Origin: Anaerofustis stercorihominis DSM 17244
Lineage (GTDB): Bacteria > Bacillota > Clostridia > Eubacteriales > Anaerofustaceae
NCBI RefSeq assembly: GCF_000154825.1
Contig: NZ_DS560015.1
Span: forward strand, 335,052-399,051
Direction: 5' to 3'
DNA: 64,000 bases
Below are positions 15,530 through 30,219 of this stretch, piece after piece. The notes under the pieces are model-generated. The model had not been told where the DNA came from and did not search any database. It saw only the letters and a program-made list of their open reading frames with translations. The stretch's first letter is position 1. Every line of letters starts with the position of its first letter. The translations under genes and the position numbers were made by a program.

Positions 15530-15558
15530 TTGACTTATGGTCGACCATAATGTATAAT
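15530..15558 (+). promoter_or_regulatory. Cassette 1 promoter with TATGGTCGACCATA operator
   Basis: TTGACT and TATAAT are 17 bases apart, and the 14-bp perfect palindrome TATGGTCGACCATA (15536-15549) fills most of the spacer. A repressor bound there would block RNA polymerase. Confidence 0.8.
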
Positions 15559-15616
15559 ATAATTACAGTTAATAAAACATTAACGAGTACGGAGGCAAGA
15601 GCCAGAAAGGGATATT

Positions 15617-15736
15617 ATGGAAAATGGAATGACCAATGAACAATTTAAAACAGTACTTGAAATGATTATAGAGATAATCAAATCGAGTGACAGCAAAGAA
15701 GAAGCAATAAAAAAAATAGAAGCCTTACTTAAATAA
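15617..15736 (+). CDS. 39-aa small protein, first gene of cassette 1
   Basis: The ORF MENGMTNEQFKTVLEMIIEI... ends KKIEALLK. AAAGG lies before the ATG. It is helical and acidic-basic, with no recognised family. It is present only in copy 1 of the cassette. Confidence 0.5.
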   Translation: MENGMTNEQFKTVLEMIIEIIKSSDSKEEAIKKIEALLK

Positions 15737-15759
15737 GCAAAGCTTCAAACACTGTTTAA

Positions 15760-15816
15760 GTATTGGGCGGTACTTGCCACCGTCCGATACTATATATATG
15801 ATAACATTTATGTTAT
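15760..15816 (+). ncRNA. Structured linker before RHH copy 1
   Basis: A 12-bp stem (15760-15771 with 15779-15790, two G-U pairs) has TTGCCACCG at its tip and 3' arm, followed by a second hairpin ATAACAT/ATGTTAT (15801-15816). It lies between the 39-aa ORF and the RHH gene. It repeats the two-hairpin layout seen before the 74-aa genes. Confidence 0.5.
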
Positions 15817-15835
15817 GAAAAGGCAAGATTGAGAG

Positions 15836-16024
15836 GTGTTTATTATAGATAGAAAGAAAATAGGCAGACCGACAAATAATCCCAGAAGTGAGAAAATCGG
15901 TTTTAGAATGTCAAAAAAAGAAATTGAGGATATTCAGAAATGTGCTGATGCGATGAATACTAAACGTGTAAATGCAGTTATAGAGGGAATATCTTTATTA
16001 AAGGAAAAATTAAAAATAAAATAA
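15836..16024 (+). CDS. RHH-type regulator, cassette copy 1
   Basis: The core KIGRPTNNPRSEKIGFRMSKKEIEDIQKCADAMNTKRVNAVIEGISLL is a short strand plus two helices, as in Arc/CopG proteins. It is homologous to the proteins at 18545 and 28937 (shared KIGRPTNNP). The only upstream standard start is GTG 15836, which lies inside the ribosome site GAGAGGTG; a rare start (ATT or ATA near 15842) is possible. It likely represses its own cassette. Confidence 0.65.
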   Translation: MFIIDRKKIGRPTNNPRSEKIGFRMSKKEIEDIQKCADAMNTKRVNAVIEGISLLKEKLKIK

Positions 16025-16029
16025 AAAAA

Positions 16030-16152
16030 GATGTAAGCTGCCACCGACTAAAGCCACAAGCTTACATCAAAACCGATAGAAGTATCTATCTATAAATATT
16101 TTACTATGGATTGAAACTTCTGTCAAATACAAAAAAATTTGAAAAGGAGTTT
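16030..16152 (+). ncRNA. Cassette RNA switch, copy 1
   Basis: Hairpin 1 is a 10-bp stem GATGTAAGCT/AGCTTACATC (16030-16039, 16059-16068) with TGCCACCG at its start. The arm ACTTCT (16116-16121) can pair with AGAAGT (16078-16083), or, extended to AAACTTCT, with the ribosome site AGGAGTTT (16145-16152; eight pairs, one G-U). The two pairings exclude each other, so the fold may control translation of the 74-aa gene. Confidence 0.6.
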
Positions 16153-16157
16153 TTTTA

Positions 16158-16382
16158 ATGGAAGAATATAGAATAATGATGGAATTATATTATAAGTCAC
16201 AAGATAGAGAAGATTATTATGAGTTGTATGAAAAGTATGTGGAACCTGAGCTTGGCAAAATAATGGAGAGTGAGAGCTTCAGCGATGTTGACGAATATGC
16301 GGGGAGCATATCGGCAAATTCGGAGATGTTGGGATTTGTGATGGGATTTAAGACTGCAATGGAGCTGATTATGGAGTGCTAA
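16158..16382 (+). CDS. 74-aa acidic protein, cassette copy 1
   Basis: The protein MEEYRIMMELYYKSQDREDYYELYEKYVEPELGK... is acidic and helical. Copies at 18840 and 29235 have the same length and share the C-terminal FSDVDE-AGS-SANSEMLGFVMGFK core. I do not recognise the family. AAAAGGAG precedes the start and lies in the RNA switch. In this copy no antirepressor follows; two terminators do. Confidence 0.7.
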   Translation: MEEYRIMMELYYKSQDREDYYELYEKYVEPELGKIMESESFSDVDEYAGSISANSEMLGFVMGFKTAMELIMEC

Positions 16383-16401
16383 AATTAATCCAAATTAAAA
16401 A

Positions 16402-16431
16402 TTGGGACAATTTTGGGACAATCTTGGGACA
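16402..16431 (+). promoter_or_regulatory. Triple TTGGGACA repeat, candidate late-gene control site
   Basis: TTGGGACA occurs at 16402, 16413 and 16424, exactly 11 bases apart (one helical turn). It stands before the terminase genes and could bind the ArpU-type activator. A -10-like TTATTATGTTATT follows at about 16450. Confidence 0.45.
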
Positions 16432-16474
16432 TTTTTTAAGAAAAAATGTGTTATTATGTTATTAGGGAATTAGA

Positions 16475-16533
16475 GGCAGAGTTAAAACTCTGTCTTTTTA
16501 GATATAAAACAGAGGCGAACCCTCTGTTTTTTT
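16475..16533 (+). terminator. Two tandem terminators before terminase
   Basis: GGCAGAGTT/AACTCTGTC with TTTTT (16475-16499) and CAGAGG/CCTCTG with seven T (16509-16533). They close cassette 1. Late transcription starting upstream would have to read through them. Confidence 0.8.
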
Positions 16534-16553
16534 AAGTAAACAGGGGGGTAAGA

Positions 16554-17000
16554 ATGGGAAAGGAAGGTAAATTGACACAGAAGCAGAAGCGTTTTTGTGA
16601 TGAATATATAATATGCTTAAATGCCACCGAGGCGGCTATCAAGGCGGGGTATGCGAAGAAGAGTGCGTACTCTATCGGGAGTGAGAACTTGAGAAAACCT
16701 GAAATAAAGGCTTATATAGACGAAAGGCTCAGTGAGATAAGGGGAAAGAAGATAGCGGAAGCCGAGGAGATAATGGAGTATCTGACATCGGTGGTAAGAG
16801 GAGAGAGCGAGTCGGAGATAGTGGTTATCGAAGGAGAGGGGCTTGGGGAGTCCAGTGCGAGGAAGATAAGGAAGAACCCGGATGAGAAAGAAAAGCTGAA
16901 GGCAGCGGAGCTGATCGGTAAGAGGTATGGACTGTTTACGGAGAAGGTGGAGCTGGACAGCAGCAAGAAAACTATAAAGGTGACGCTTACGGATGATTAA
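16554..17000 (+). CDS. terS: Terminase small subunit
   Basis: The 148-residue protein begins LTQKQKRFCDEYIICLNATEAAIKAGYAKKSAYSIGSENLRKPEI, the helix-turn-helix of the Terminase_2 family, followed by a helical oligomerisation part. It recognises phage DNA at the packaging start and loads the large subunit. Its stop overlaps the start of the large subunit gene by eight bases. Confidence 0.92.
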   Translation: MGKEGKLTQKQKRFCDEYIICLNATEAAIKAGYAKKSAYSIGSENLRKPEIKAYIDERLSEIRGKKIAEAEEIMEYLTSVVRGESESEIVVIEGEGLGESSARKIRKNPDEKEKLKAAELIGKRYGLFTEKVELDSSKKTIKVTLTDD

Positions 17001-18459
17001 TGAAAGTGAAATAAATATTGAAATATCAAAGAAAGTATTCAATGAGGTCTATCTTCCTTATATCGATAACGAAGACAGGCTTCTTATTTTTTACGGCGGT
17101 GCGGGAAGCGGGAAGAGCGTGTTCGTGGTACAGAGGTATGTGTATAAGATACTTAACAGTGATCTATGCAACGTACTTGTGGCAAGGAAGACGGGGAACA
17201 CCAACAGGACTTCTACCTTTGCACTGTTCAAGCAGGTCATTTATAAATGGAACTTGGGAGAGTATTTTCTGATTAACAAAAGCGATATGAGCATAACATG
17301 CAAGCTTAATAAAAATCAGATAATATTCAAAGGGCTTGACGACGTGGAAAAGATCAAATCCACGACATTTGAAACGGGAGAGCTTACGGATGTATGGATA
17401 GAGGAAGCCAGCGAGATAGAAGAGGACGACTACAAGCAGCTGAATGTACGTTTAAGAGGGGGAAAGAGCAAGAAGCAGATAGTGATGAGCCTTAACCCCA
17501 TAGATATAAATCACTGGATAAAGCTGAAGCTGATAAACGAAGACAAGGCTACATATCTTCATACCACTTATAAAGACAACAGGTTCATTGATGAGGATTA
17601 CAAGAGAGAGCTTGAGAGCTACAAGGACACGGATATATATTATTACAATGTGTACTGTCTGGGAATGTGGGGAGTTCTGGGAGACAGTGTATTCGATGTG
17701 GGTGTAGTGAACAATCAGCTTGCAAAGGACATAAGACCCGTAAAGAGGGGATATTTCTTATACGACTATGACGGGAAGGATATAACGAATATAAGGTGGA
17801 TAGAGGACGCGGGAGGATATATAAATATATACGAAGATGTGAAGGGGAGATATCCTTATGTTATCGGAGGAGATACTGCGGGAGACGGGAGCGACAACTT
17901 CACGGCTCATGTAATAAACAATGTAACGGGGCAGCAAGTATGCACAATGAAAAATAAATTTGATGAGGACTTATATGCAAGGCAGGTATACTGTCTGGGG
18001 AAATATTATAACGACGCACTGGTAGGGATAGAGGCGAACTACTCCACATATCCCAATAAGGAGCTTGAAAGACTTAAATATCCTAAAATGTATGTGAGAG
18101 AAAGAGAAGATACATACACAAAGAAGATGGTAAAAGCCTTCGGATTTGTGACTACTTCTTTGACGAGACCCATAATAATAGCAAACCTTATAAAAATAGT
18201 CAGAGAAGAGGGAGAGAAGATAGTGGATAAAGATACGCTGGAAGAAATGCTTACATTCGTAAGGAATGAGAAAGGCAGACCGGAAGCGGCAATGGGAGCC
18301 CACGACGACTTGGTAATGGGGCTTGCCATAGCATACAACATAAGAGAACAGCAGGAAATGACGATACCGAAAGAGAAGAGACCTAGACACTATAACTTTG
18401 AGGCAGAGAAGCCGAAGAGGGGGAGAAGTGATTTGGGGAGTGAGGTTAAGGTGGTTTAA
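16993..18459 (+). CDS. terL: Terminase large subunit (PBSX type)
   Basis: The 488-residue protein has the ATPase P-loop GGAGSGKS at residues 35-42, a Walker B-like DVWIEEASE near residue 133, and the nuclease domain starting with GGDTAGDGSDNF near residue 292 and a late HDDLVMGLAIA motif. It cuts concatemers and drives DNA into the head. It is directly followed by cassette 2, which separates it from the portal gene, an unusual place for an insertion. Confidence 0.95.
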   Translation: MINESEINIEISKKVFNEVYLPYIDNEDRLLIFYGGAGSGKSVFVVQRYVYKILNSDLCNVLVARKTGNTNRTSTFALFKQVIYKWNLGEYFLINKSDMSITCKLNKNQIIFKGLDDVEKIKSTTFETGELTDVWIEEASEIEEDDYKQLNVRLRGGKSKKQIVMSLNPIDINHWIKLKLINEDKATYLHTTYKDNRFIDEDYKRELESYKDTDIYYYNVYCLGMWGVLGDSVFDVGVVNNQLAKDIRPVKRGYFLYDYDGKDITNIRWIEDAGGYINIYEDVKGRYPYVIGGDTAGDGSDNFTAHVINNVTGQQVCTMKNKFDEDLYARQVYCLGKYYNDALVGIEANYSTYPNKELERLKYPKMYVREREDTYTKKMVKAFGFVTTSLTRPIIIANLIKIVREEGEKIVDKDTLEEMLTFVRNEKGRPEAAMGAHDDLVMGLAIAYNIREQQEMTIPKEKRPRHYNFEAEKPKRGRSDLGSEVKVV

Positions 18460-18485
18460 ATATTTTATAAAGGTATAAATATCTC

Positions 18486-18526
18486 TTGACTTTTGTTAGA
18501 CAATAATATATACTTATGTTAGACAA
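18486..18526 (+). promoter_or_regulatory. Cassette 2 promoter with 23-nt-spaced direct repeats
   Basis: TTGACT (18486-18491) and TATACT (18509-18514) are 17 apart. TGTTAGACAA occurs at 18494-18503 (in the spacer) and again at 18517-18526 (start site), 23 bases apart. It is a likely operator for the RHH protein encoded next. Confidence 0.75.
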
Positions 18527-18544
18527 AAGTTAGGAGGTGTAAAG

Positions 18545-18718
18545 TTGTCTAAAAAAATAGGGCGACCAACTAATAATCCGAAGCCTTATAAGCTTGGTGT
18601 TAGATTAAATGAAAAAGATAAAAAAATATTGGATTTATATTGTGAACAATATGAAGTTAATAAAAGTGAAGCTGTAAGTGCAGGGATAAAAAAGTTGGAA
18701 ACCGATATAAAAAAATAA
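18545..18718 (+). CDS. RHH-type regulator, cassette copy 2
   Basis: The 57-residue protein starts at TTG 18545 eight bases after AGGAGG. It reads SKKIGRPTNNPKPYKLGVRLNEKDKKILDLYCEQYEVNKSEAVSAGIKKLE, a strand followed by two helices as in Arc/CopG repressors. It is homologous to copies 1 and 3. Its promoter contains a pair of direct repeats fitting two helical turns, so it probably represses itself. Its stop codon is part of the RNA stem that follows. Confidence 0.75.
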   Translation: MSKKIGRPTNNPKPYKLGVRLNEKDKKILDLYCEQYEVNKSEAVSAGIKKLETDIKK

Positions 18719-18833
18719 GAGAAAAGGCTGTAGTTTGCCGACCGCACCTAATCTCTTATGCACCAGAGGTTACCCAACTGATAAATATATTATATCAGAT
18801 ACGGATACCTCAATCAATAAATTTAGGAGGTAT
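18716..18833 (+). ncRNA. Cassette RNA switch, copy 2
   Basis: Hairpin 1: TAAGAGA/TCTCTTA (18716-18722, 18752-18758), with TGCCGACCG in its loop. Then GAGGT (18766-18770) can pair with ACCTC (18807-18811) around an inner CTGATA/TATCAG hairpin, or ATACCTC (18805-18811) can pair with GAGGTAT of the ribosome site (18827-18833). Only one can form at a time. The first frees and the second hides the start of the 74-aa gene. Confidence 0.65.
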
Positions 18834-18839
18834 TTTTTA

Positions 18840-19064
18840 ATGGAAGAATATAAAAATATAATGCAGTTACATTATAAGTCACAGGATAAGCCGGAACATT
18901 ATGAATTATATAAAAAGTATGTGGAACCTGAAATAGATAAAATAATGAAGAGCGAGAGCTTCAGCGATGTTGACGAATGTGCGGGGAGCATATCGGCGAG
19001 TTCGGAGATGGTTGGATTTGTAATGGGATTTAAAACGGCAATGGAGCTGATTAAGGAGTGCTAG
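18840..19064 (+). CDS. 74-aa acidic protein, cassette copy 2
   Basis: The product MEEYKNIMQLHYKSQDKPEHYELYKKYVEPE... is the same length as copies 1 and 3 and shares the FSDVDECAGSISASSEM core. ATG 18840 follows TAGGAGGTATTTTTTA. Its stop TAG is one base from the ATG of the antirepressor, so translation of the two is probably coupled. A family name is not known to me. Confidence 0.7.
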   Translation: MEEYKNIMQLHYKSQDKPEHYELYKKYVEPEIDKIMKSESFSDVDECAGSISASSEMVGFVMGFKTAMELIKEC

Positions 19065-19065
19065 G

Positions 19066-19788
19066 ATGAACGAAATAAAGATATTTGAAAACAGTGAATT
19101 TGGAAGAGTAAGAGTTGAATTAATAAATAATGATATATATTTTTGTCTTAAAGATGTATGTGAGGCACTATCAATTACCAATACAACAATGGTTGCCAAT
19201 AGATTAGATGTAGATGAAGTGACTAAGTTAGATTTAGGCGGTAAATCAGGAAGTACCAATTTTGTAAATGAAAGTGGTTTATATTCTGTTATATTAAGAA
19301 GTGATAAACCCAATGCACAAAAGTTTAGGAAATGGGTAACATCGGAAATATTACCAAATATCAGAAAACACGGAGCATATATGACCGATGAGACGCTTGA
19401 GAAAGCTCTGTTAAGCCCTGATTTCCTTATCCAGCTTGCTAATCAACTTAAAGAAGCAAAAGCATTGAACAGTAAGCTGGCGGTAGATAATCAAATAATG
19501 AAGCCTAAGGCAGATTATTTCGACGAACTGGTGGAACGAAACACATTGACGAATTTTACGGAAACGGCTAAGGAACTGGGGATAAAAAGAAAAGTACTTA
19601 TAAACTTTCTTATTAATAAAAAATATATTTACAGAGACAAAAAGGGTAAGATACTTCCTTATGAAAGCAGAAATAAAGGATATTTTGAGATAAAAGAAAG
19701 CTTCAACAATAAAACTGACTGGAGCGGAGTACAAACTCTTATAACTCCCAGAGGAAGAGAAGCCTTTAAGCTCATGATAACGGGATAA
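19066..19788 (+). CDS. BRO-N antirepressor with KilAC-like C-terminus
   Basis: The 240-residue protein has a BRO-N domain (about residues 1-105: IFENSEFGRVRVELIN, DVCEALS, NESGLYSVILRS, KFRKWVTSEILPNIRK) and a KilAC-like DNA-binding end (TETAKELGIKRKVLINFLINKKYIYRDK). BRO/ANT proteins act as antirepressors or DNA-binding factors in phages. It lacks its own ribosome site and starts one base after the previous stop. It sits between terminase and portal genes. Confidence 0.85.
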   Translation: MNEIKIFENSEFGRVRVELINNDIYFCLKDVCEALSITNTTMVANRLDVDEVTKLDLGGKSGSTNFVNESGLYSVILRSDKPNAQKFRKWVTSEILPNIRKHGAYMTDETLEKALLSPDFLIQLANQLKEAKALNSKLAVDNQIMKPKADYFDELVERNTLTNFTETAKELGIKRKVLINFLINKKYIYRDKKGKILPYESRNKGYFEIKESFNNKTDWSGVQTLITPRGREAFKLMITG

Positions 19789-19797
19789 GGAGGAGTA

Positions 19798-20058
19798 ATG
19801 AACGCAAACTTAATAATAATTAGTATTTTGATATACGGCACTGTCAGTCTTCTGACGGTGCTTTTTTCTTACAATCTCGGGCTTAGGAACGGAAGAGAGA
19901 TACGAGAGGAAAAGGAAGTAAGCAGGATCGTAGAAGACAAAGGAAAGAGAGTGAAGATGAGTAAGGAAGAGAAGAAAGAGATGGATCTGATAAACACCGC
20001 ACTTATGAATATAGATAACTACGACGGGACAAACAGAGGGCAAAGGAAGATAGGATAA
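19798..20058 (+). CDS. Small membrane-anchored phage protein, 86 aa
   Basis: One N-terminal membrane helix (LIIISILIYGTVSLLTVLFSY) is followed by a basic-acidic soluble tail. AAGGAGGAG precedes the start. It overlaps the portal start by one base. Function unknown. Confidence 0.6.
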   Translation: MNANLIIISILIYGTVSLLTVLFSYNLGLRNGREIREEKEVSRIVEDKGKRVKMSKEEKKEMDLINTALMNIDNYDGTNRGQRKIG

Positions 20059-21938
20059 TGGAAGAGATGTATAGTAGGACCGACGAATGGACCTTATATG
20101 AAAAGGGGAAAGACTTTTTAAACAGGAAGAATATTTACAGTGATACGGACAAGGTATATAGGTTTTTCAACGGGAACCAGTGGCAGGGGCTGGAAAGCGG
20201 AGTAATATCGCCTATCACATATAACATAATAAAACCTATAGTGAAGTATAAGATAGGGGTAATAAACGGGAACGGATACAGCATAGTCTTTTCTCCCAAC
20301 AACTTTGAAGATGAGAGATTTCAGATAGAAATGACGGATTTATGCGAGCAGCTGAACGAATATATCAATATCTTATGGGAGAACAAGAAGATAGACGCGA
20401 AGGCGAGGGAGATATTAAAGGATGGGTGTATAAACTCTGAGGGTATATTATATCTCGATTATGATATGACGGAGAACGAAGTAAACCCGGAAGTCATAAA
20501 TAAGACCAACATTTATTATGAGAATGAAAACAACCCTGATATAAACGAGCAGGACTATATCCTTATAACAACGAGACGAAGCGTTTCTTCGGTAAGGAGA
20601 GAAGCTAAGAAGAATATGGAGTTTGGGCTTAACAGTCTAAATAAAGACGATATAGATAATATAAGAGGAGACAACAACACAAAGGAACAGTCCGGGGATT
20701 ATGCAAAAGAAGAGCTTAATAACATGGTCCTTGTGGTAAGCAAGTTCTTTAAGAAAGACGGTCACATATGGTTCAAGAAGTCGACGGAGAATGCGGTCAT
20801 AGAGGATGAGAGGGATTTGGGGCTTAGTAAATACCCTATAGCTCACTTTGTATGGGAAGAGGTGAAAGGAAGTGCCAGAGGCACGGGAGAAGTCTTAAAC
20901 CTTATACCGAACCAGATAGAGATAAACAAGACGGCTACGAGAAGGTCTTTGGCGGTGATGATGGGAGCATATCCCAAATTGGTGGTGGACGGAGACAGGA
21001 TAAGTAATCCTGACAGCATAACGAAGGTTGGGAATGCTATATTTACAAAAGGGCAGACGGTGGACGATGTAAGGAAAGTCGTGGGATATTTAAATCCCGC
21101 AAGCATGAGTTCGGACAGTGTAAGCCTGCAAAACGACCTTATAAACAACACTAAGGACTTAGCGGGAGCGGGAGACAGTGTTACGGGGGATGTAAACCCC
21201 GAACAGGCAAGCGGACAGGCGATACTTGCGGTACAGCAGGCGAGCCAGCAGAACCTGACGGATTATCTTATAAGGTTCAAGGATTTTCTTGAAGATGTGG
21301 CGAGCATAATGTTTGAGATGTGGCAGGTATATACTCCCGATGAAGGGAAAGCCATAATAACCAAACAGTCCGTACAGGGACTTAAGGAAAATATGGGACC
21401 TCAGATAAATATGGAAAATATCAATCCTTATTCAGCGGAAGAAGCGGGAGAAGGGGAGGATTTCGACAGTAAGCTGATATCAAGCAAGGTAGGACACGGA
21501 GAAGTGGTATCAAGTGTAGAAGAAAACGATAAGGATATCGAAGATAAGGAAGTATACATAAGAAAAGTTATACCGAAAGAGCTTATAGAAAAGCTCAAGG
21601 TAAATATCAAGATAGATGTATCACCGAACTCTCCTTTTGATAAATACGCGAGAGAGACGGCACTTCAAAACCTTATGACAAATCAGCTGATAACATTTGA
21701 AGAGTACGCCGAAAATTTACCTTCCGACTCTGTAATGCCGAAGGATATACTTACAAACATCTTAAAGAAGAGAAAAGAAGAGGAAGCGAAGATAAATCAG
21801 ATAGAGATGGCAGCGGAAGAGAAGAAAGCGGAGATAGACAGTAATTTAGCCGCAGTGCCGATGGAAGAAGAAGCCATGAACGCTATGGGTAACGGTATGA
21901 CGGGACAAGTGCAGAATGAGGGAGAATTTTATAATTAG
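20058..21938 (+). CDS. Portal protein (P22-like class)
   Basis: The 626-residue protein begins DEWTLYEKGKDFLNRKNIYSDTDKVYRFFNGNQW and carries IKPIVKYKIGVINGNG and a long central stem region, as in portal proteins of short-tailed phages. It includes NLIPNQIEINKTATRRSLAVMMGAYPK and an Ala/Gln-rich ASGQAILAVQQASQQNL helix, which would form the channel. The acidic C-terminus is typical of a barrel region. It forms the ring through which DNA enters. It follows terminase after the cassette. Confidence 0.88.
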   Translation: MEEMYSRTDEWTLYEKGKDFLNRKNIYSDTDKVYRFFNGNQWQGLESGVISPITYNIIKPIVKYKIGVINGNGYSIVFSPNNFEDERFQIEMTDLCEQLNEYINILWENKKIDAKAREILKDGCINSEGILYLDYDMTENEVNPEVINKTNIYYENENNPDINEQDYILITTRRSVSSVRREAKKNMEFGLNSLNKDDIDNIRGDNNTKEQSGDYAKEELNNMVLVVSKFFKKDGHIWFKKSTENAVIEDERDLGLSKYPIAHFVWEEVKGSARGTGEVLNLIPNQIEINKTATRRSLAVMMGAYPKLVVDGDRISNPDSITKVGNAIFTKGQTVDDVRKVVGYLNPASMSSDSVSLQNDLINNTKDLAGAGDSVTGDVNPEQASGQAILAVQQASQQNLTDYLIRFKDFLEDVASIMFEMWQVYTPDEGKAIITKQSVQGLKENMGPQINMENINPYSAEEAGEGEDFDSKLISSKVGHGEVVSSVEENDKDIEDKEVYIRKVIPKELIEKLKVNIKIDVSPNSPFDKYARETALQNLMTNQLITFEEYAENLPSDSVMPKDILTNILKKRKEEEAKINQIEMAAEEKKAEIDSNLAAVPMEEEAMNAMGNGMTGQVQNEGEFYN

Positions 21939-21945
21939 ATTAAAG

Positions 21946-21972
21946 TACCGATAAGGTATTTTTTTATTGCCG
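21946..21972 (+). terminator. Weak hairpin with T-run between portal and scaffold
   Basis: TACC/GGTA with a GATAA loop and then seven T. The stem is only four pairs, so partial termination at most. Confidence 0.3.
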
Positions 21973-22074
21973 ACGGGCGTAAAACGGGAGTGTCGACGGA
22001 CGATAAGCGGGACAGTCACCGAACTTAGAACGGTATAAACAGTCAGACAAGACTTTAAAAAGGGAGAAGTAAAT

Positions 22075-22962: not shown

Positions 22963-22970
22963 AAATATAA

Positions 22971-22993
22971 GATACCTGTGAGGGTATTTTTTT
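22971..22993 (+). terminator. Short hairpin with T-run before coat gene
   Basis: ATACC/GGTAT with a loop of about six bases and then seven T. It may reduce or process the transcript between scaffold and coat genes. Confidence 0.4.
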
Positions 22994-23016
22994 AATGAAA
23001 GAGAGGAAAAGAAAAA

Positions 23017-23832
23017 ATGAGTTATAACAATTTTAAACCACTTATATGGAGTAAGAATATTTTAAGGGATTTAGAGAAGATGACGGTACTTGATAAAGAC
23101 TGTTGTCATGACTTCGACGGAGAAGTCAAAGAAGGCGGAAAAGTAAAGATATTGGGTGTTACTAGACCGACGATCAAAGATTATGACGGGACGGATATAG
23201 ACGGTCCCGAAAATCCACCTGATACAAGTATTTACATGAATATCGATAAGGCCAAGTACTTCAACTTTGCCATTGACGATATCGATAAAGCACAGACAAA
23301 GAAAGGACTTATGAGCTCTCTCAGAGCGGAAGCTACAGCCGGACTTGCTGAGATATACGACTATAGCATTGCAAGCGAAGCGGTAAATGCGGGAAGCAAG
23401 ACAAATTCCAGTGCAATCGCTACTGCCGACGAACTTAAAAATTTGATAGATAAAAAGCTTGTATGGCTCAGAAATAACGGAGTGCCTTTGACACAAAGAG
23501 TGGTCATCGAGCTTACTCCATGGGCTTATGATGTATTTGAAAATAAAATCATAGAACTAAAAACTCAAAACGATAAACTGATAAAACAAGGTATCTTGGG
23601 GCAGTACAAAAATGCTTATGTAAAAATGAGCAACAACTTATATAACGACGGAAAAGACGATTATTTAATGCTTAGAACTGACAGAGCTATTGCGGCGGCA
23701 AAACAGATAGATAAAGTGGAACCTTACAGACCCGAAAAGAGATTTGCGGAAGCGGTAAAAGGGCTTATGGTATACGGAACAAAGACTGTAAGACCGAAAG
23801 AGCTCGGAGTAATAAAAGCTCACGAAGCGTAA
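23017..23832 (+). CDS. Major capsid (coat) protein, P22-type HK97 fold
   Basis: The 271-residue protein starts MSYNNFKPLIWSKNILRDLEKMTVLDKDCCHDFDGEVKEGGKVKILGVTRPTI and has ELTPWAYDVFENKI and RTDRAIAAAKQIDKVEPYRPEKRFAEAVKGLMVYGTK, a layout seen in coat proteins of P22-like phages with the HK97 fold. It is shorter than P22 coat protein (430 residues), so it lacks the inserted domain. It directly follows the scaffold gene. Confidence 0.85.
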   Translation: MSYNNFKPLIWSKNILRDLEKMTVLDKDCCHDFDGEVKEGGKVKILGVTRPTIKDYDGTDIDGPENPPDTSIYMNIDKAKYFNFAIDDIDKAQTKKGLMSSLRAEATAGLAEIYDYSIASEAVNAGSKTNSSAIATADELKNLIDKKLVWLRNNGVPLTQRVVIELTPWAYDVFENKIIELKTQNDKLIKQGILGQYKNAYVKMSNNLYNDGKDDYLMLRTDRAIAAAKQIDKVEPYRPEKRFAEAVKGLMVYGTKTVRPKELGVIKAHEA

Positions 23833-23850
23833 AAAAGGAGGAGAAGAAAG

Positions 23851-24198
23851 ATGGCAGCAACAAATATTGAATGTGTAAAGATAAAGAGGAACGAAGCGGG
23901 CGGATATCCCGAATTACAGGCTATAGATGAAACTAACGGGGCTTTGATAGACTACAGAGAAGCGGACCAAAAGATACTTATAATATTGAGTGCGGGGGCG
24001 GCTTCAAAAGTTACGGTACACGGAGGAAACGGAGTGCAGGGAACAGATGAAGCGACTTTTGAATTTGATATGCAAAGCGGAGATACTAATACTCTGGTAC
24101 TGGAAAGCGGTATGTATATGGATGTAAAAGAGAACAAAGGGAAAGTTAAGATAACCACGGACGGGACAGTGTCAATAGGTGCTATCGCACTTCCTTAA
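23851..24198 (+). CDS. Probable head decoration/minor structural protein
   Basis: The 115-residue beta-rich protein (ILSAGAASKVTVHGGNG..., TLVLESGMYMDVKENKGKVKIT) stands just after the coat gene and before a terminator, the usual place for a head-stabilising protein. No motif proves this. Confidence 0.6.
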   Translation: MAATNIECVKIKRNEAGGYPELQAIDETNGALIDYREADQKILIILSAGAASKVTVHGGNGVQGTDEATFEFDMQSGDTNTLVLESGMYMDVKENKGKVKITTDGTVSIGAIALP

Positions 24199-24203
24199 AT
24201 ATA

Positions 24204-24230
24204 AGGGGCTTTACGCCCCTTTTTCTTTTT
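24204..24230 (+). terminator. Terminator-like hairpin after decoration gene
   Basis: AGGGGC/GCCCCT around TTTAC, then TTTTCTTTTT. It is strong enough to lower transcription of the downstream tail genes relative to head genes. Confidence 0.65.
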
Positions 24231-24245
24231 ATGGGAGAAAAAATA

Positions 24246-24851
24246 ATGAGTATACAAAGTATAAAAGAGATAAAAAAATATATACTTGCCTTGGTGGAAG
24301 AATATTCAACGACGAATATGTATACTTCCGATGATGAGGATATAAACAAGAAACTGCTTCCGCTTATACATATGCAGTATATATACCTTGCAAATCAGGA
24401 AGGATTAAAAAGAAAAAAGGTAATAAACGTAGCTGACAATACCTCGAATGAGAAGGAATATACGCCTTATTCTCTCGGTAGTTCATGTTCAAAGCTTCTT
24501 GGTGTCAGGGTAATAGATTCAAAGACGAACGAGATAGAATATTATTATTTAAATAAGAGGCTTTATATAAGAAATGACTTTTACGGAGTGATAGAAGCGG
24601 AATACAGGATATATGCCGAGGATCTAACCGAGATAGACGAAAAGGATATAAATGATACGGAGCTTGATTTGAGTCAGGACACGGTAATGGCGTTATGTTA
24701 TTTGGTTGCGGGAGATATATTAAAGACCGACGTAAGTGCGAATTACAGTGCTTTCGATACAAAAGCACAGCAGTATATCGGAGCATTGGATATAAGTAAG
24801 AGCGATATAATCGGAGTAGTAAGACCTATGGGATTTGGTGGAGGTCTGTAA
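24246..24851 (+). CDS. Head-completion (portal-tail adaptor) protein
   Basis: The roughly 200-residue protein lies between decoration and tail-hub genes, where P22-like phages encode their gp4-like adaptor. It is helical at the start (IKEIKKYILALVEEYSTTN) with a beta segment (YYYLNKRLYIRNDFYGVIEAEYRIY). ATG 24246 is preferred over 24231 because GGGAG then stands nine bases upstream. The stop overlaps the next start. The role is inferred mainly from position. Confidence 0.6.
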   Translation: MSIQSIKEIKKYILALVEEYSTTNMYTSDDEDINKKLLPLIHMQYIYLANQEGLKRKKVINVADNTSNEKEYTPYSLGSSCSKLLGVRVIDSKTNEIEYYYLNKRLYIRNDFYGVIEAEYRIYAEDLTEIDEKDINDTELDLSQDTVMALCYLVAGDILKTDVSANYSAFDTKAQQYIGALDISKSDIIGVVRPMGFGGGL

Positions 24852-26866
24852 TGGCAAACATCATAACGAAGACTTACGGAGAAATAAGAGGTGTGGACTT
24901 CTCAAGAGAAGCAAGGAACGTAAAGGAAAACCGTTCCCCGGATATGGTCAACATGTGGAAGGATTACAATGATGACAGTCAGTGTATAGTTACAAGAGAA
25001 GGGTACAGGTTAGTAGCGGATGTATCGGACTTAATAGAAGGCGAGACCTCGGATAAAGAAGTGTACGGTATACATGTTTATACTACTTCGGGAAGCAGTA
25101 AGGCCTTATTGCATGCGGGAAATAAGCTCTATCTATGGAAAGAATTCCCAAGCAATTTACAAACCGAGGGTTTGGTCCCTATAGCGGAAGGAATGGGAAC
25201 TGTCAGGTCAAGCAGTTTCATGTATAATGATAACTTATATTTAAATGACGGGGTAACTTATTATAAATATAACGGTAAAGAACTTATCGATATAACGAAT
25301 ATAGCGAGGATAGATGAACAGGTCCTAAGTATAAATAAAGATGTAAGAGAGAGCGGTTTGGATATACCTTATATCCCAACGACCACCATAGCGAGGATAC
25401 CCGGCGGCGGCGGAGATACATATCAAAATGTAAATTTGCTTACGCCTTGGAGAAAAAATTCTTTTTTGGGCGACGGGACCGCAAAAGAATACTCATTGGA
25501 TACTACCGATTTGACTACCGACAGCATTGATTATATAAAAGTATGGATAAATGATGAATATATAGACAGTGAAAGTAATTATAAAGTCGTAAGTGTAAAT
25601 AAAAAGACCGGGACTGTGACTTTTAATAATGCTCCGTCTAAACCTGCGACTATAGGACAGGACAATGTTGTGATAATGTTCTATAAAAAGATAGAAGGTT
25701 ATAAGGACAGGATAAACGAATGTACTATGAATACCGTATTTGATAACAGGGCTTTTTTCAGCGGTAATGGTACATATAAAAACGGACTATTTCACAGCGA
25801 ACTTAATGACCCCGAATATATATCCGACCTTGGATATTATCAGGACGGAACTGATAATGAAGCTATTACTTCAATTGTAGTCGGAGGAAGTGTCCTTTGG
25901 GTGTTCAAAGACGGAAGAGAAGGAGGCAACAATCTATTTTATCATATACCGACAAATCAAAACTTGACTGTAACGACTTTTGCGGGAAAGACGGAAACCA
26001 AAATAACAAAAACTTATCCTTCAAAACAGGGTAAGTGCAGCAGCGGTACTTTCGGGTGCGGGATAAACTTTTTAGATGATATTTGCTTTCTTTCAAAAGA
26101 AGGTATGTTCGGACTTCAGTATTCGGATCTAAACAGCGATATTTACTCAATGGATTTCGTTTGTTCTCGTTCAAGGCTTATCAATCCGAGACTGGTAAGC
26201 GAGAAGAATCTTCTTAAAGCGAGTGTCGATATATATAAAGGATATTTATGTTTGCTGATAGACGGGAGTATGTATTTGGCCGACAGTAGGTGTACTTACA
26301 GCTCAAATAACGGGTATGAGTATGAATGGTATTATTTCAGCGATTTAAGGGTAATCAAAGGAGATAAAATAAATAACGGTGTTTATTTAAAATCATTCGA
26401 TAATCGGTTATTCTTTGGTACTTCGGGAGGAGAAGTATGTGTGTTTGATGAGGATATGTATAAGGATAACGGTGAAGGACTTAAAAATTATATAACTCTC
26501 AAATCGGATAATTTCGGCAATATCAATCATTTGAAGACGACATCCAAACGAGGCGGTATAGCAAAATTCAAAGTCATGGGAAACAGCGGTGCGAACATAT
26601 ATGTAAGGACGAACAAAACCAAGGAATTCGGCTTGGTATCAAGCTACAGAAACGAAGGGTTTTCATTCCAAGGATTTAATTTCGGTAATGTCAGTTTCTT
26701 ACTTAATCAGGATAATAATTATCAGGTAGTCAAAAGCAAACAAAAGAAATTCAATGAGCTTCAGGTGATGATAAAAGGAGAGAGTGAAGACGGGAAAGAA
26801 GATAAGCCTTTCGGATTTTTCTCATTGACCTTCGAAGCATTTGAAGGAAGCTATATAAAAAGGTAG
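24851..26866 (+). CDS. Tail hub/stabilisation protein (P22 gp10-like)
   Basis: The 671-residue protein is beta-rich, begins IITKTYGEIRGVDFSREARNVKENRSPDMVNMWKD and has repeated strand-turn units (YGIHVYTTSGSSKALLHAGNKLYLWKEF; NLYLNDGVTYYKYNGKEL), a beta-propeller pattern typical of tail stabilisation proteins in short-tailed phages. It would plug the portal channel and hold the tail fibre. The gene follows the adaptor with a one-base overlap. Confidence 0.7.
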   Translation: MANIITKTYGEIRGVDFSREARNVKENRSPDMVNMWKDYNDDSQCIVTREGYRLVADVSDLIEGETSDKEVYGIHVYTTSGSSKALLHAGNKLYLWKEFPSNLQTEGLVPIAEGMGTVRSSSFMYNDNLYLNDGVTYYKYNGKELIDITNIARIDEQVLSINKDVRESGLDIPYIPTTTIARIPGGGGDTYQNVNLLTPWRKNSFLGDGTAKEYSLDTTDLTTDSIDYIKVWINDEYIDSESNYKVVSVNKKTGTVTFNNAPSKPATIGQDNVVIMFYKKIEGYKDRINECTMNTVFDNRAFFSGNGTYKNGLFHSELNDPEYISDLGYYQDGTDNEAITSIVVGGSVLWVFKDGREGGNNLFYHIPTNQNLTVTTFAGKTETKITKTYPSKQGKCSSGTFGCGINFLDDICFLSKEGMFGLQYSDLNSDIYSMDFVCSRSRLINPRLVSEKNLLKASVDIYKGYLCLLIDGSMYLADSRCTYSSNNGYEYEWYYFSDLRVIKGDKINNGVYLKSFDNRLFFGTSGGEVCVFDEDMYKDNGEGLKNYITLKSDNFGNINHLKTTSKRGGIAKFKVMGNSGANIYVRTNKTKEFGLVSSYRNEGFSFQGFNFGNVSFLLNQDNNYQVVKSKQKKFNELQVMIKGESEDGKEDKPFGFFSLTFEAFEGSYIKR

Positions 26867-26875
26867 GTGATACAT

Positions 26876-27280
26876 ATGGCTATAGAAAATATAACAGAAT
26901 TCAATGAAGACGTAATAAATATAGAGCCTCTCGGTGATACGCCCAAAATATCGGGATTGGAGCTTAGAAAGACGTTTGACAAGGCGGGAGCGGATATAAA
27001 AGAATATATAAATAATTCCCTTGTATCAAAAGTGAACGATGAGATCATAAAAGACGTGAACAGCAATACAAGCAGTATTTCTTCCATAAACACAAGCATA
27101 ACGAATATGAATAATACTTTGAATACAGTGAATACATCTGTTTTGAAAGTATTTACTTCGGAGTCGGGTTCAAGCGTAAATACGACTCCGAAGATAGTAT
27201 TTTCAAAGACCGTTCCGACTACTGCGAGCACGAATTACGGTTCCAAGCTTCCCGTAGGTTCCGTTGTATTCGTATATTAG
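26876..27280 (+). CDS. Small structural protein with coiled coil
   Basis: The protein of about 134 residues has a coiled-coil segment of Asn/Ser/Thr repeats (SSISSINTSITNMNNTLNTVN) and a short beta end. ATG 26876, seven bases after AGGTAGGTG, is used instead of GTG 26867. It is likely a tail component. Confidence 0.6.
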   Translation: MAIENITEFNEDVINIEPLGDTPKISGLELRKTFDKAGADIKEYINNSLVSKVNDEIIKDVNSNTSSISSINTSITNMNNTLNTVNTSVLKVFTSESGSSVNTTPKIVFSKTVPTTASTNYGSKLPVGSVVFVY

Positions 27281-27289
27281 GAGAAAGTT

Positions 27290-28120
27290 ATGGCTGCAAG
27301 CGGAAGGATAACGGGAAAATACAGCAATAACAGTGATGTATATATATCTCTTGAATGGGAATTAAAGAGTCAGGATAAGGAAGCGAACAAAAGTGTTATT
27401 CACTGCGAGTTATGGCTTAGAGGAAAAGACAGCTACAGACACTGGAATTTTAACAGTAATACAAAGTTTATAATAGTAGATGGGAATAAAAAGACGAATA
27501 CCTCCACTTCTTTCGATACAAATAAAAATCCGTGTAAATTAATGCAAGGTGATTTTACCGTAAAGCATAACAGTGATGGAAGCGGGAGTTTTAAAGTTTC
27601 GGCGAAGCATTACAGCGGTGTAAAGCTTGGGACTGCGACGATATCCGGTAAAAGTTTTAATATTACACAAATAAAAAGGATTTCTAAATTAAACAGTATA
27701 TCAATAAGCGGAGAGTACAACGGGATAAAAGCTTCATATACTAAATATAATACAAAATTTACCGATAATCTGGTAATAAAGTGCGGGAGTTTTACAAAGA
27801 CGGTAAAGGGGTATAAATCCGGAAGTCTCGTATCGTTTTCTTCAAGTGAAAAGGAAAGCATAAAAAAAGTTATAGGAACAGGGAAAAGCGTTACTTTCAC
27901 TTGCTATTTGCAGACTTACAGCGGTTCTACGTATGTAGGCAAAAGCAATACGTTAAGCAAGACGGGAGAAGTGACTCAGGAGGTCATACCTAAGATATAC
28001 ATAAAGACGGGTACGAGTTCGATAAGTAAAATAAAAAGTATATACATAAAGACCGATACAAGCAGTATCATAAAGGTAAAAAGCGTATATATAAAACCAA
28101 GCGGGATAAATAAAGTTTAG
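27290..28120 (+). CDS. DUF859-like phage structural protein
   Basis: The 276-residue beta-rich protein begins MAASGRITGKYSNNSDVYISLEWELKSQD with later TVKHNSDGSGSFKVSAKHYS, matching the DUF859 type found in phage tail regions. The C-terminus has three repeats of YIKT-x-TSSI-x-K-x-KSI, probably a flexible or stacked end. A role in the tail spike or fibre is inferred. Confidence 0.7.
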   Translation: MAASGRITGKYSNNSDVYISLEWELKSQDKEANKSVIHCELWLRGKDSYRHWNFNSNTKFIIVDGNKKTNTSTSFDTNKNPCKLMQGDFTVKHNSDGSGSFKVSAKHYSGVKLGTATISGKSFNITQIKRISKLNSISISGEYNGIKASYTKYNTKFTDNLVIKCGSFTKTVKGYKSGSLVSFSSSEKESIKKVIGTGKSVTFTCYLQTYSGSTYVGKSNTLSKTGEVTQEVIPKIYIKTGTSSISKIKSIYIKTDTSSIIKVKSVYIKPSGINKV

Positions 28121-28132
28121 AAAGGAGAGAAA

Positions 28133-28837
28133 ATGGCAAATCCATACAGCGGGTTAAGTAAACTTGCTAACAGTCAATATAAAAGCAGTAATGCAGCGGT
28201 AGATAAGTATTATAATTCGGCAAAGAACAATATGAATGCGTCTACCGAACAAACCATAAAAGAATTTAACCAGCAGAAAGTGAAAGCGGATCAAGGAGCT
28301 ACCTTGGAAGGCAGAGCGGCAAACGCGGATTATTTGAAAAGCATAAATCCTTACGGGGCTTCGGCGGAAGCACAGGCAAGCGGAGGACTTCTGGGAAGCG
28401 GATACAGCGAAAGCAGTAAGACTGCAAATTATAACTCCATGCAAAACAGAGTGTCACAGGCAAGGAGCACGGCTGAAGAAGCAAAGATGAATTATGACAA
28501 TCAGATAGCACAGGCAAGGAATGCAAAAAATGCACAGATGGCGGAGCTTGCTTACAATACAATGACGACAAGGAGCAACAACCTTAACAATTTGCTTGGT
28601 AACAGGGTAAATATTGCCTCAGGAGTGAGCAATCATTCCATAAACAAAGGGCAGTTGGATTTAGCGAAAAAAGAATTAGCTTTCAATATGAAACAGGCAA
28701 AAAAAGATAACGCCTCTGCGGGCAGTTCTTCGAGAAAATCAAGCAGTTCGGGCTCTAAGAGAAGCGGTTCGGGGAATAAAGCTTCTTCAAAGAAGAGTAC
28801 CGGAAAAGCTAAAAGCAATAAAAAAGAAATAAAATAA
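28133..28837 (+). CDS. Ala/Ser-rich virion (ejection-type) protein
   Basis: The 234-residue protein is rich in Ala, Asn, Ser and Gln, with long helices (QARNAKNAQMAELAYNTMTTRSNNL) and a Ser/Lys/Gly tail with almost no hydrophobic residues. It precedes, across cassette 3, the giant ejection protein. Short-tailed phages encode small helical ejection proteins in this place. The assignment is inference. Confidence 0.55.
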   Translation: MANPYSGLSKLANSQYKSSNAAVDKYYNSAKNNMNASTEQTIKEFNQQKVKADQGATLEGRAANADYLKSINPYGASAEAQASGGLLGSGYSESSKTANYNSMQNRVSQARSTAEEAKMNYDNQIAQARNAKNAQMAELAYNTMTTRSNNLNNLLGNRVNIASGVSNHSINKGQLDLAKKELAFNMKQAKKDNASAGSSSRKSSSSGSKRSGSGNKASSKKSTGKAKSNKKEIK

Positions 28838-28874
28838 TAAGCCGGCAGGGGCGTAAAAAATATTAGAATATCTC

Positions 28875-28913
28875 TTGACTTTTGGCAGACTTTAGTATAT
28901 AATTAAGTCAGAC
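28875..28913 (+). promoter_or_regulatory. Cassette 3 promoter with 23-nt-spaced repeats
   Basis: TTGACT (28875-28880) and TATAAT (28898-28903) are 17 apart. CAGAC occurs at 28886-28890 and 28909-28913, 23 bases apart, at the same positions as TTAGAC in cassette 2 but with different flanks. Confidence 0.7.
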
Positions 28914-28936
28914 ATAAGGAAGGAGGTAAATGTATA

Positions 28937-29113
28937 TTGTCTACTAAAATAGGTAGACCAACTGATAATCCTAAAGATAAAGAACGTTTGACTGTAAGGT
29001 TAGATAAAAAAAGTTCTGATATTTTAAATGAATATTGTAAACAGGAAAACGTTAATAAAGGGCAAGCAATAAGAAATGGGATAAAAAAGTTGGAAGCCGA
29101 TATAAAAAAATAA
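28937..29113 (+). CDS. RHH-type regulator, cassette copy 3
   Basis: The 58-residue protein starts at TTG 28937, after AGGAGG. It reads STKIGRPTDNPKDKERLTVRLDKKSSDILNEYCKQENVNKGQAIRNGIKKLE. It differs from copy 2 mainly in the strand region that would contact DNA (GVRLN versus TVRLD), in line with the different operator. The stop again lies within the following RNA stem. Confidence 0.75.
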   Translation: MSTKIGRPTDNPKDKERLTVRLDKKSSDILNEYCKQENVNKGQAIRNGIKKLEADIKK

Positions 29114-29228
29114 GAGAAAAGGCTGTAGTTTGGCGACCGCACCTAATCTCTTATGAACCAGAGGTTACCCTACTGATAAATATATTATATCAGATACGGA
29201 TACCTCAATCAATAAATTTAGGAGGTAT
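29111..29228 (+). ncRNA. Cassette RNA switch, copy 3
   Basis: It is nearly identical to copy 2: TAAGAGA/TCTCTTA (29111-29117, 29147-29153), GAGGT (29161-29165), ATACCTC (29200-29206) and GAGGTAT in the ribosome site (29222-29228). The few changes fall in loops, and all three switching arms are kept. Confidence 0.65.
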
Positions 29229-29234
29229 TTTTTA

Positions 29235-29459
29235 ATGAAAGAATATAAAAATATAATGGAACTATACTATAAGTCACTAGATAAGAAAGATTATCATAAA
29301 TTATATGAAAAGTATATAGATCCGGAATTTGACAAGATAATGAAAAGTAAAAGCTTTAGTGATGTTGACGAATGTGCGGGAAGCCTGGCTGCAAATGCTG
29401 AGATGTTAGGCTTTGTAATGGGTTTTAAATATGCAACGGATTTATGGAAGGAATGCTAA
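29235..29459 (+). CDS. 74-aa acidic protein, cassette copy 3
   Basis: The protein MKEYKNIMELYYKSLDKKDYHKLYEKYIDPE... keeps the FSDVDECAGSLAANAEMLGFVMGF core. Its TAA ends one base before the ATG of the next gene, so coupled translation is likely. Confidence 0.7.
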   Translation: MKEYKNIMELYYKSLDKKDYHKLYEKYIDPEFDKIMKSKSFSDVDECAGSLAANAEMLGFVMGFKYATDLWKEC

Positions 29460-29460
29460 T

Positions 29461-30174
29461 ATGAACGAAATAAAGATATTTGAAAACAGTGAGTTTGGAA
29501 GAGTAAGAAGTTTAATGATAGATAACGAGCCTTATTTTGTGGGAAAAGATGTAGCGGAGATATTGGGGTATGCAAAACCGCTTAATGCACTTGCTAATCA
29601 TATTGATGAATATGACTCCCTGAAACAGGGACTCATTGACAGCATGGGAAGAACACAAGAAACAATCTTCATTAACGAATCTGGTCTTTACAGTCTTATT
29701 CTTTCTAGTAAGTTACCGTCAGCAAAGAAATTCAAACGCTGGGTAACGAGCGAGGTACTGCCCAGCATAAGAAAGACAGGAGAGTATAAGACAACGGAAC
29801 CGATAAAGGAAATGCTTGCGGAGGCAAAGCTTAGGAATGCGAGGGCGAGGGAAGCTTCCATATGGCTTAAAATCGGTCAGAATATTAAGTCCGAGGATTA
29901 CAGGCAAATATGTTCTTCCTATGCGAGCGAGGCTTTGGCAGGCTCTGCGGTAATCCCGCTTCCTGAAGTTCGGGAAACATATTATACAGCAACGCAGTTA
30001 GGAGATATGCTGGGTATATCGGCTAACAGAATAGGAAGGATAGCAAACGAGCATAAACTGAAGACATCTAGGTTTGGTAAATGGTATCACGATAAGGGAA
30101 AAAACAGCAGTAAAGAAGTAGATGTATTCAGATATAATTCAGAAGGTTTGGAGCAAATAAAAAAATATATATAA
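29461..30174 (+). CDS. BRO-N antirepressor, cassette copy 3
   Basis: The 237-residue protein has a BRO-N domain whose first residues MNEIKIFENSEFGRVR are identical to those of the copy 2 gene. The C-terminal half is unrelated to it: TATQLGDMLGISANRIGRIANEHKLK is another helix-turn-helix. So the N-terminal domain is shared and the C-terminal part has been exchanged. An upstream in-frame start at 29431 lies inside the 74-aa gene and is not used here. Confidence 0.82.
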   Translation: MNEIKIFENSEFGRVRSLMIDNEPYFVGKDVAEILGYAKPLNALANHIDEYDSLKQGLIDSMGRTQETIFINESGLYSLILSSKLPSAKKFKRWVTSEVLPSIRKTGEYKTTEPIKEMLAEAKLRNARAREASIWLKIGQNIKSEDYRQICSSYASEALAGSAVIPLPEVRETYYTATQLGDMLGISANRIGRIANEHKLKTSRFGKWYHDKGKNSSKEVDVFRYNSEGLEQIKKYI

Positions 30175-30177
30175 ACG

Positions 30178-30202
30178 AAGAAGAGCGTATGCTCTTCTTT
30201 TT
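30178..30202 (+). terminator. Terminator closing cassette 3
   Basis: AAGAAGAGC pairs with GCTCTTCTT around GTAT, then TTTTATTT. It separates the cassette from the giant gene. Confidence 0.7.
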
Positions 30203-30219
30203 ATTTGGGAGTGGATATC

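Follow-up and report, generated by a model that had tools for sequence, protein, structure and literature searches.

A repeated prophage cassette with a ribbon–helix–helix gene and a predicted antisense RNA resembles P22 immI and pMV158 copG–RNAII–repB

In the c4-icd-ant system of phage P1, an RNA controls the antirepressor through a coupled small open reading frame (ORF), and this RNA, c4, is a processed product cut from the ant transcript itself, on the same strand. In phage P22, the mnt/arc/sar/ant genes (immI) have been described as a late-operon 'ant moron' of Salmonella phages (PMC2629481; see also PMC11016777 on mnt/arc/sar/ant, in which immI was deleted and lysogeny frequency measured), and in plasmid pMV158 the antisense RNAII, made up of a 5′ tail and one terminator hairpin, occupies the stretch between copG and repB, immediately ahead of the signals for repB translation (PMC4485353). 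Here we analyse a cassette that occurs three times in a prophage of Anaerofustis stercorihominis DSM 17244, within a stretch of 64,000 nucleotides (the window; C1:335052-399051 of the 2.28 Mb genome) whose prophage is also the IMG/VR entry UViG_641736193_000002 (36,272 bp). Every copy encodes a ribbon–helix–helix (RHH) protein and, beyond a leader, a 74-amino-acid (aa) protein; a BRO-type antirepressor gene follows in copies 2 and 3. We consider it probable that each copy is a complete 'ant moron' in its own right, repressed in two layers as are P22 immI and pMV158 copG–RNAII–repB.

The window cassettes resemble P22 immI in an RHH repressor gene, an antirepressor and the position of a late-region moron, and probably in an antisense RNA against the repressor–effector region; for this candidate counterpart of sar, promoter and terminator signals are present and conserved. 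The layout of an RHH gene upstream of an antirepressor, as in immI, is found in copies 2 and 3 and not in copy 1. P22 immI has a second repressor, Mnt, whereas no mnt-like divergent repressor lies beside any window cassette, and its effector is P22 Ant rather than BRO/KilAC or Rha; Pfam found Bro-N, KilAC and HTH_17 in the window antirepressors, and no P22 antirepressor domain. Also unlike immI, a coupled 74-aa gene lies between, three copies reside in one phage, an alternative pairing that covers the Shine–Dalgarno (SD) sequence is predicted in the leader, and the hosts are Gram-positive bacteria and Fusobacterium. The geometry of pMV158, an RHH autorepressor with an intergenic countertranscript that consists of a 5′ tail and one terminator hairpin, recurs in the sequence signals read here; RNAII has 48 nt in pMV158 against 74–77 nt here, and that system is a plasmid one with the RepB replication initiator as effector, whereas ours is borne by a phage and its effectors are antirepressors and small proteins. 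The original prediction had chosen P1 c4-icd-ant as the parallel. Copies 2 and 3 do share with it a small ORF that abuts the antirepressor start, the stop codon of the 74-aa gene lying one base before the BRO ATG (TAG-G-ATG and TAA-T-ATG, respectively), as had been predicted. However, the P1 system has no RHH protein, the window signals lie on the opposite strand, and Rfam c4 gave no match at the gathering threshold or at E ≤ 10. The cassette is closer to P22 arc–sar–ant and pMV158 copG–RNAII–repB than to P1 c4-icd-ant; it resembles the P22 and pMV158 systems, yet by effector homology is a member of neither.

Antisense units, leaders and operators of the three cassettes

The three-copy cassette that had been predicted is present, with its coordinates, RHH genes, 74-aa genes and DNA repeat; the repeat between copies lies far above chance (238 nt at 84% and 77%, 300 nt at 84%). 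BRO antirepressors had been placed at the end of copies 2 and 3, which is correct; copy 1, although counted among three antirepressor switches, ends at the 74-aa gene. On the plus strand, the RHH genes occupy 15836–16024 in copy 1 (uncertain GTG start, alternative start at 15848; phrog_876, E = 5e-9, and RHH alignment), 18545–18718 in copy 2 (TTG start, 57 aa; phrog_876, E = 1.6e-12) and 28937–29113 in copy 3 (TTG start, 58 aa; RHH_1, E = 7e-4; phrog_876, 2.4e-13). The 74-aa genes, identified as ORFs and by alignment, lie at 16158–16382, 18840–19064 and 29235–29459 of the same strand. They are followed by an antirepressor gene for a Bro-N and KilAC protein in copy 2 (19066–19788, plus strand; Pfam Bro-N 3.5e-22, ANT 9e-23) and for a Bro-N protein with an HTH_17-type C terminus in copy 3 (29461–30174, plus strand; Bro-N 8.5e-28, HTH_17 2.9e-5).

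Between the RHH and 74-aa genes, an RNA of about 120 nt had been predicted. The plus-strand leader is indeed 120–133 nt long, but the conserved signals are those of a 74–77-nt RNA gene on the minus strand, and what had been called a 'structured RNA' is most plausibly the complement of this candidate antisense RNA. The minus-strand promoter of copy 1, TTGACA-17-TAAAAT (16098–16126), precedes a predicted RNA of about 77 nt (16015–16091) with a 3′ hairpin, GATGTAAGCT...AGCTTACATC, and a T-run. Copy 2 has TTGATT-17-TATAAT with an extended −10 (TGA; 18789–18817, minus strand) and a predicted RNA of about 74 nt (18709–18782, minus strand), whose terminator hairpin, ATAAGAGA...TCTCTTAT, runs into TTTTTTT; it scored 110.9 bits with the covariance model R1, which was built from it. 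The same promoter, again with an extended −10, stands at 29184–29212 (minus strand) in copy 3, where the predicted RNA of about 74 nt (29104–29177, minus strand; also by model R1) has 3 bases unlike copy 2. In the promoter scan, the minus-strand site ranked among the best within each cassette, and TTGAYW-N16..18-TANAAT had 12 matches in the 64 kb, where 2.6 would be expected, with 5 of these 12 being cassette sense or antisense promoters. In all copies the minus-strand hairpin and T-run overlap the 3′ end or stop codon of the RHH gene, and the predicted antisense RNAs fold better than shuffled sequences (z = −4.0, −3.0 and −3.2 for copies 1, 2 and 3). Rfam placed no family on the cassettes of the window and 20 relatives. 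Two other readings of the unit were rejected: a minus-strand ORF, as the unit measures 74–77 nt and is bounded by promoter and terminator, and a riboswitch, which had no Rfam match. Copies 2 and 3 have predicted antisense RNAs that agree at 71 of 74 bases, but only 61% identity between their RHH proteins and unlike operators, which suggests that RNA-level control is shared and DNA-level control separate. With 3 differences in 74 bases, the RNAs may fail to act independently in these two copies, and the proposal of three independent antirepressor switches was overstated on this count and because copy 1 has no antirepressor.

Folding of the plus-strand leaders revealed a potential switch. In copy 1 (16075–16124), GATAGAAGT (16075–16083) pairs with AACTTCTGTC (16115–16124), which can alternatively pair with the SD sequence AAAAGGAGTT (16142–16151). 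In copy 2 (18766–18833), GAGGTTACC (18766–18774) can pair with GGATACCTC (18803–18811), or GGATACCTC with the SD sequence AGGAGGTAT (18825–18833), and copy 3 (29161–29228) has the same three segments at 29161–29169, 29198–29206 and 29220–29228. The switch logic of copy 1 is thus that of copy 2, written in other letters. When the segment covered by the antisense RNA was blocked in 64 leaders, with SD and start assignments made automatically, SD accessibility changed by a mean of −0.24 and dropped by more than 0.1 in 59%; shuffled leaders under the same blocking changed by +0.07, with such a drop in 6%. The duplex between the 3′ half of the leader and the SD sequence reached −10.4 kcal/mol against −6.2 kcal/mol in shuffles. 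Antisense pairing is therefore predicted by these models to free the anti-SD segment.

The sense promoters carry putative operators that differ between copies. Copy 1 has TTGACT-17-TATAAT (15530–15558, plus strand) with a perfect 14-nt palindrome, TATGGTCGACCATA (15536–15549), between the hexamers. Copies 2 and 3 have imperfect operator-like repeats with cores unlike each other (TTAGAC and CAGAC): the arms ACTTTTGT (18489–18496) and ACAAAAGT (18523–18530) with a repeated TTAGACAA at TTGACT-17-TATACT (18486–18514, plus strand), and GGCAGAC/GTCAGAC repeats at TTGACT-17-TATAAT (28875–28903, plus strand). Across the family described below, inverted repeats scoring at least 9 lie 5′ of 52 of 117 RHH genes, compared with 4 of 234 shuffles; their arms, of up to 18 nt, surround the −10 box, and their cores vary by cassette. 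By analogy with the CopG/Arc family, we infer that the RHH protein binds its own promoter.

Copy 1 alone contains a 39-aa ORF, MENGMTNEQFKTVLEMIIEIIKSSDSKEEAIKKIEALLK (15617–15736, plus strand), and, 5′ of the RHH gene, a second antisense-type unit on the minus strand (15719–15826) with the promoter TTGCCT-17-TATCAT (15826–15798), a hairpin with loop GGCAAGTACC and a terminator-like hairpin (15746–15719). The motif of this unit has three instances in the locus set. At window positions 15617–15826 and at loci L031 and L175, the RHH gene is separated from a small ORF by a second hairpin (loop GGTACTTGCC) and an antisense promoter with 17-nt spacing; the ORF of L031 is similar to the 39-aa ORF and that of L175 is different. 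It is as if the control design had been stacked twice.

Relatives in other genomes and empty sites in a sister phage

The RHH profile was searched in 391 Clostridia genomes and matched in 51, from which 73 regions were taken, together with 7 from the host. A protein search also found RHH relatives in phages of Fusobacterium, Clostridioides and Streptococcus and in viral contigs. Eleven of these loci were read, and each has a promoter-like sequence on the minus strand, 65–98 nt past the RHH stop; what follows downstream are short ORFs or genes for Rha, BRO, KilAC or HNH/AP2 proteins. The earlier statement that nothing is recognisably homologous therefore does not hold, as many Clostridia genomes, and phages of those three genera, contain RHH genes that have the same antisense unit. 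Promoter statistics were based on 105 RHH genes picked by protein similarity alone, with controls over all 117 genes; a promoter was counted if it scored at least 10 points on the minus strand 20–165 nt downstream of the RHH gene. By this measure 79 of 105 have an antisense promoter, with the −10 end 60–98 nt past the stop in 78 of the 79, a spacer of exactly 17 in 68 and an extended −10 in 59. Shuffles yielded 5%, the plus strand 17 of 117 and the ends of unrelated ORFs 31 of 557 (5.6%).

A terminator (6–14-bp stem plus T-rich tail) was found in 89 of 90 units. Its outer stems comprise 64 distinct sequences, all pairing, and 62% pair after the 3′ sides are swapped; since pairing was a search criterion, the spread of stem sequences is the informative part. 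Nearly all R1 matches above about 43 bits are cassettes with an RHH gene, recovered independently of the protein search, but the model has little structure (5 pairs) and gives false positives below about 42 bits, which is why the statistics rest on protein-selected genes. A DNA pattern made from the antisense −10 region lacks specificity when used by itself, most of its 36 viral matches lying elsewhere, and was therefore used only to add members. Judged by these signals, an RHH gene combined with an antisense RNA is a common but unannotated arrangement among Clostridia and Fusobacteria, in their phages as in their genomes. In the open-access literature we did not find the cassette RNA described, and the combination of an RHH/CopG/Arc protein, an antisense RNA and an antirepressor appeared only in work on P22-type systems.

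What lies downstream varies. The longer downstream genes (n = 41) include Bro-N (11), Rha (8), ORF6N (5) and KilAC/ANT (8) proteins, in overlapping classes, and at least 24 of the 41 are antirepressors. Five cassettes (L028, L031, L139, L155 and L171) encode a small protein and then, as effector, an endonuclease of the HNH/AP2 or NUMOD4 type instead of an antirepressor. Outside the prophage, the host genome has at least six further RHH–antisense units (L210, L212, L213, L214, L215 and L216), some away from obvious phage genes, in which the effector slot encodes another RHH-like protein, about 50 aa long, followed in L210 and L214 by a DUF6809-like gene. Tandem runs of 2–6 RHH genes, several with their own antisense promoter, occur at L173 (G293:C12:712400-716300), L138, L137, L193, L211 and L070; in L070, at least two of three antisense units are followed by a terminator-like hairpin in place of an effector.

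Comparison with a sister phage (L233/L236) revealed the sites without their cassettes. Its TerL is 76% identical, its gene order is the same minus the cassettes, and no RHH gene was found in its 38.8 kb. Site 2 is empty, with 9 nt from TerL to orf86; site 3 is empty, with 78 nt from the orf234 homologue to the polyvalent gene; and at site 1 only 277 nt separate a sigma-like ORF from TerS, with no cassette. As judged from this comparison, the cassettes are therefore mobile morons that interrupt the phage gene order. The interruption had been part of the original prediction, and a phage lacking the cassettes at these sites is what its proposed check called for. In the window, copy 1 (about 15530–16382) lies between an AntA/KilAC antirepressor gene (14750–15457), which is not part of it, and TerS; copy 2 (18486–19788) between TerL and a small ORF preceding portal; and copy 3 (28875–30174), closed by a terminator-like hairpin (30177–30200, plus strand), between a virion gene and the gene of a 2,782-aa polyvalent protein. 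The genes upstream of the cassettes (AntA, TerL and the virion gene) are all on the cassette strand. The 2,782-aa protein, a single frame at 30205–38553 that is kept in the sister phage, resembles polyvalent virion-associated proteins.

Proposed mechanism, competing explanations and implications

In the mechanism that we favour, the RHH protein would be an autorepressor acting at a copy-specific operator around the −10 box. A constitutive minus-strand promoter just 5′ of the effector ribosome-binding site would supply the 74–77-nt antisense RNA, ending at the intrinsic terminator at the RHH stop; in vivo, this RNA would pair with the 5′ half of the RHH–effector leader, leaving the 3′ half free to pair with the SD sequence and turning translation off. 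If both layers were lifted, for example upon entering a cell without the cognate RHH protein and RNA, copies 2 and 3 would make the coupled 74-aa (DUF6809-like) protein and the BRO antirepressor together, and the BRO protein could then counteract a prophage repressor, its presumed target. The RNA and the coupled small ORF thus probably gate the antirepressor, as originally predicted. What the sequences themselves show are the arrangement of the genes, conserved and covarying promoter and terminator signals, leaders prone to switching and the empty sites.

Several points weigh against this interpretation. Only copies 2 and 3 have an antirepressor, the 74-aa gene being the last of copy 1; about a quarter of the RHH genes have no clear antisense promoter; the sampled genomes are related to one another, so that counts are not independent; and copies 2 and 3 reach weak inverted-repeat scores, 8 and 6, so that their operators lean on the family pattern. 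In an equilibrium model, moreover, SD accessibility shifts little in copy 2 (0.29 to 0.28) and copy 3 (0.43 to 0.28) because the SD sequence is already partly paired; the switch there would therefore have to act during transcription.

The proteins bear on a first alternative. In alignments, the RHH proteins share the predicted IGRPT-NP motif, as KIGRPT.NP in all three, with 37% (copy 1) and 61% (copy 3) identity to copy 2; they match PHROG 876, a 'transcriptional repressor', and CopG is among the nearest solved structures to their profile (E ~0.06). The 74-aa proteins are 69–77% identical to one another, and the predicted FSDVDE core is present within a common SFSDVDE. They had no relatives in phage records or GTDB contigs, a search with their own family returning only their own genome, no significant match in Pfam or PHROGs, nothing convincing in NCBIfam and no hmmscan match to PF20648 (DUF6809). 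In profile comparison, their C-terminal half matched DUF6809-like proteins from the same cassette position (prob 88, E 3e-6), and one distant homologue, in genome G207, adjoins an Rha gene and an antisense unit (L006). An AlphaFold model is all-helical, with four helices (predicted local distance difference test score 78.6), and had no structural match by Foldseek (best E 0.67). The 74-aa protein is nearly private, yet DUF6809-like in its C-terminal half. We think it unlikely that the cassette is an addiction module akin to toxin–antitoxin systems, with the RHH protein (type II style) and the antisense RNA (type I style) restraining a 74-aa effector, BRO as a passenger and copy 1 as the minimal module. 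Many RHH antitoxins do have this layout of an autoregulated RHH gene and a small gene downstream, an antirepressor is missing from copy 1, and small proteins often fill the effector slot, the first small downstream gene being DUF6809 in 8 of 47. However, the RHH fold takes up nearly all of the 57–58 aa, and the toxin-binding extension that such antitoxins usually have at the C terminus is missing; unrelated proteins fill the slot, with antirepressors prevailing among the longer ones as counted above; and PADLOC matched neither the RHH nor the 74-aa protein.

It is quite improbable that the plus-strand leader itself regulates, as a cis-acting structured RNA or a processed sense RNA like P1 c4, with the minus-strand promoter being incidental. 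The leaders fold well (z = −6.3, −2.2 and −2.6), and the coupling of the small ORF to the antirepressor parallels that of icd to ant, but the conserved features are minus-strand sigma-70 hexamers, 17-nt spacing, an extended −10, a T-run in the minus direction and a fixed distance from the RHH stop, and c4 had no Rfam match. That the cassettes are degenerate remnants of repeated recombination with other phages, inserted but not functional as switches, fits the missing antirepressor of copy 1 and the almost identical leaders of copies 2 and 3, but is very unlikely given that the RHH and 74-aa frames, promoters, terminators and SD sequences are intact in all three copies despite protein divergence.

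More speculatively, and only as a tentative suggestion, the cassettes may belong to a large unannotated moron class of Clostridia and Fusobacteria in which matched RHH/operator and antisense RNA/leader pairs act as double, fast-diversifying specificity tags, an immunity code; multiple copies per phage and effector-less tandem RHH–antisense units in chromosomes and phages could then be libraries that silence the antirepressors of incoming phages. P22 immI has so far been an enterobacterial oddity. If our interpretation is true, arc–sar–ant logic would be common in phages of Fusobacterium and of Gram-positive hosts, as a mobile module present in several copies, an antisense RNA missing from Rfam and from the annotations examined would sit 3′ of most of these RHH genes, and prophage cross-talk in gut bacteria could be tested by exchanging a 75-nt RNA together with the 57-aa protein that partners it.

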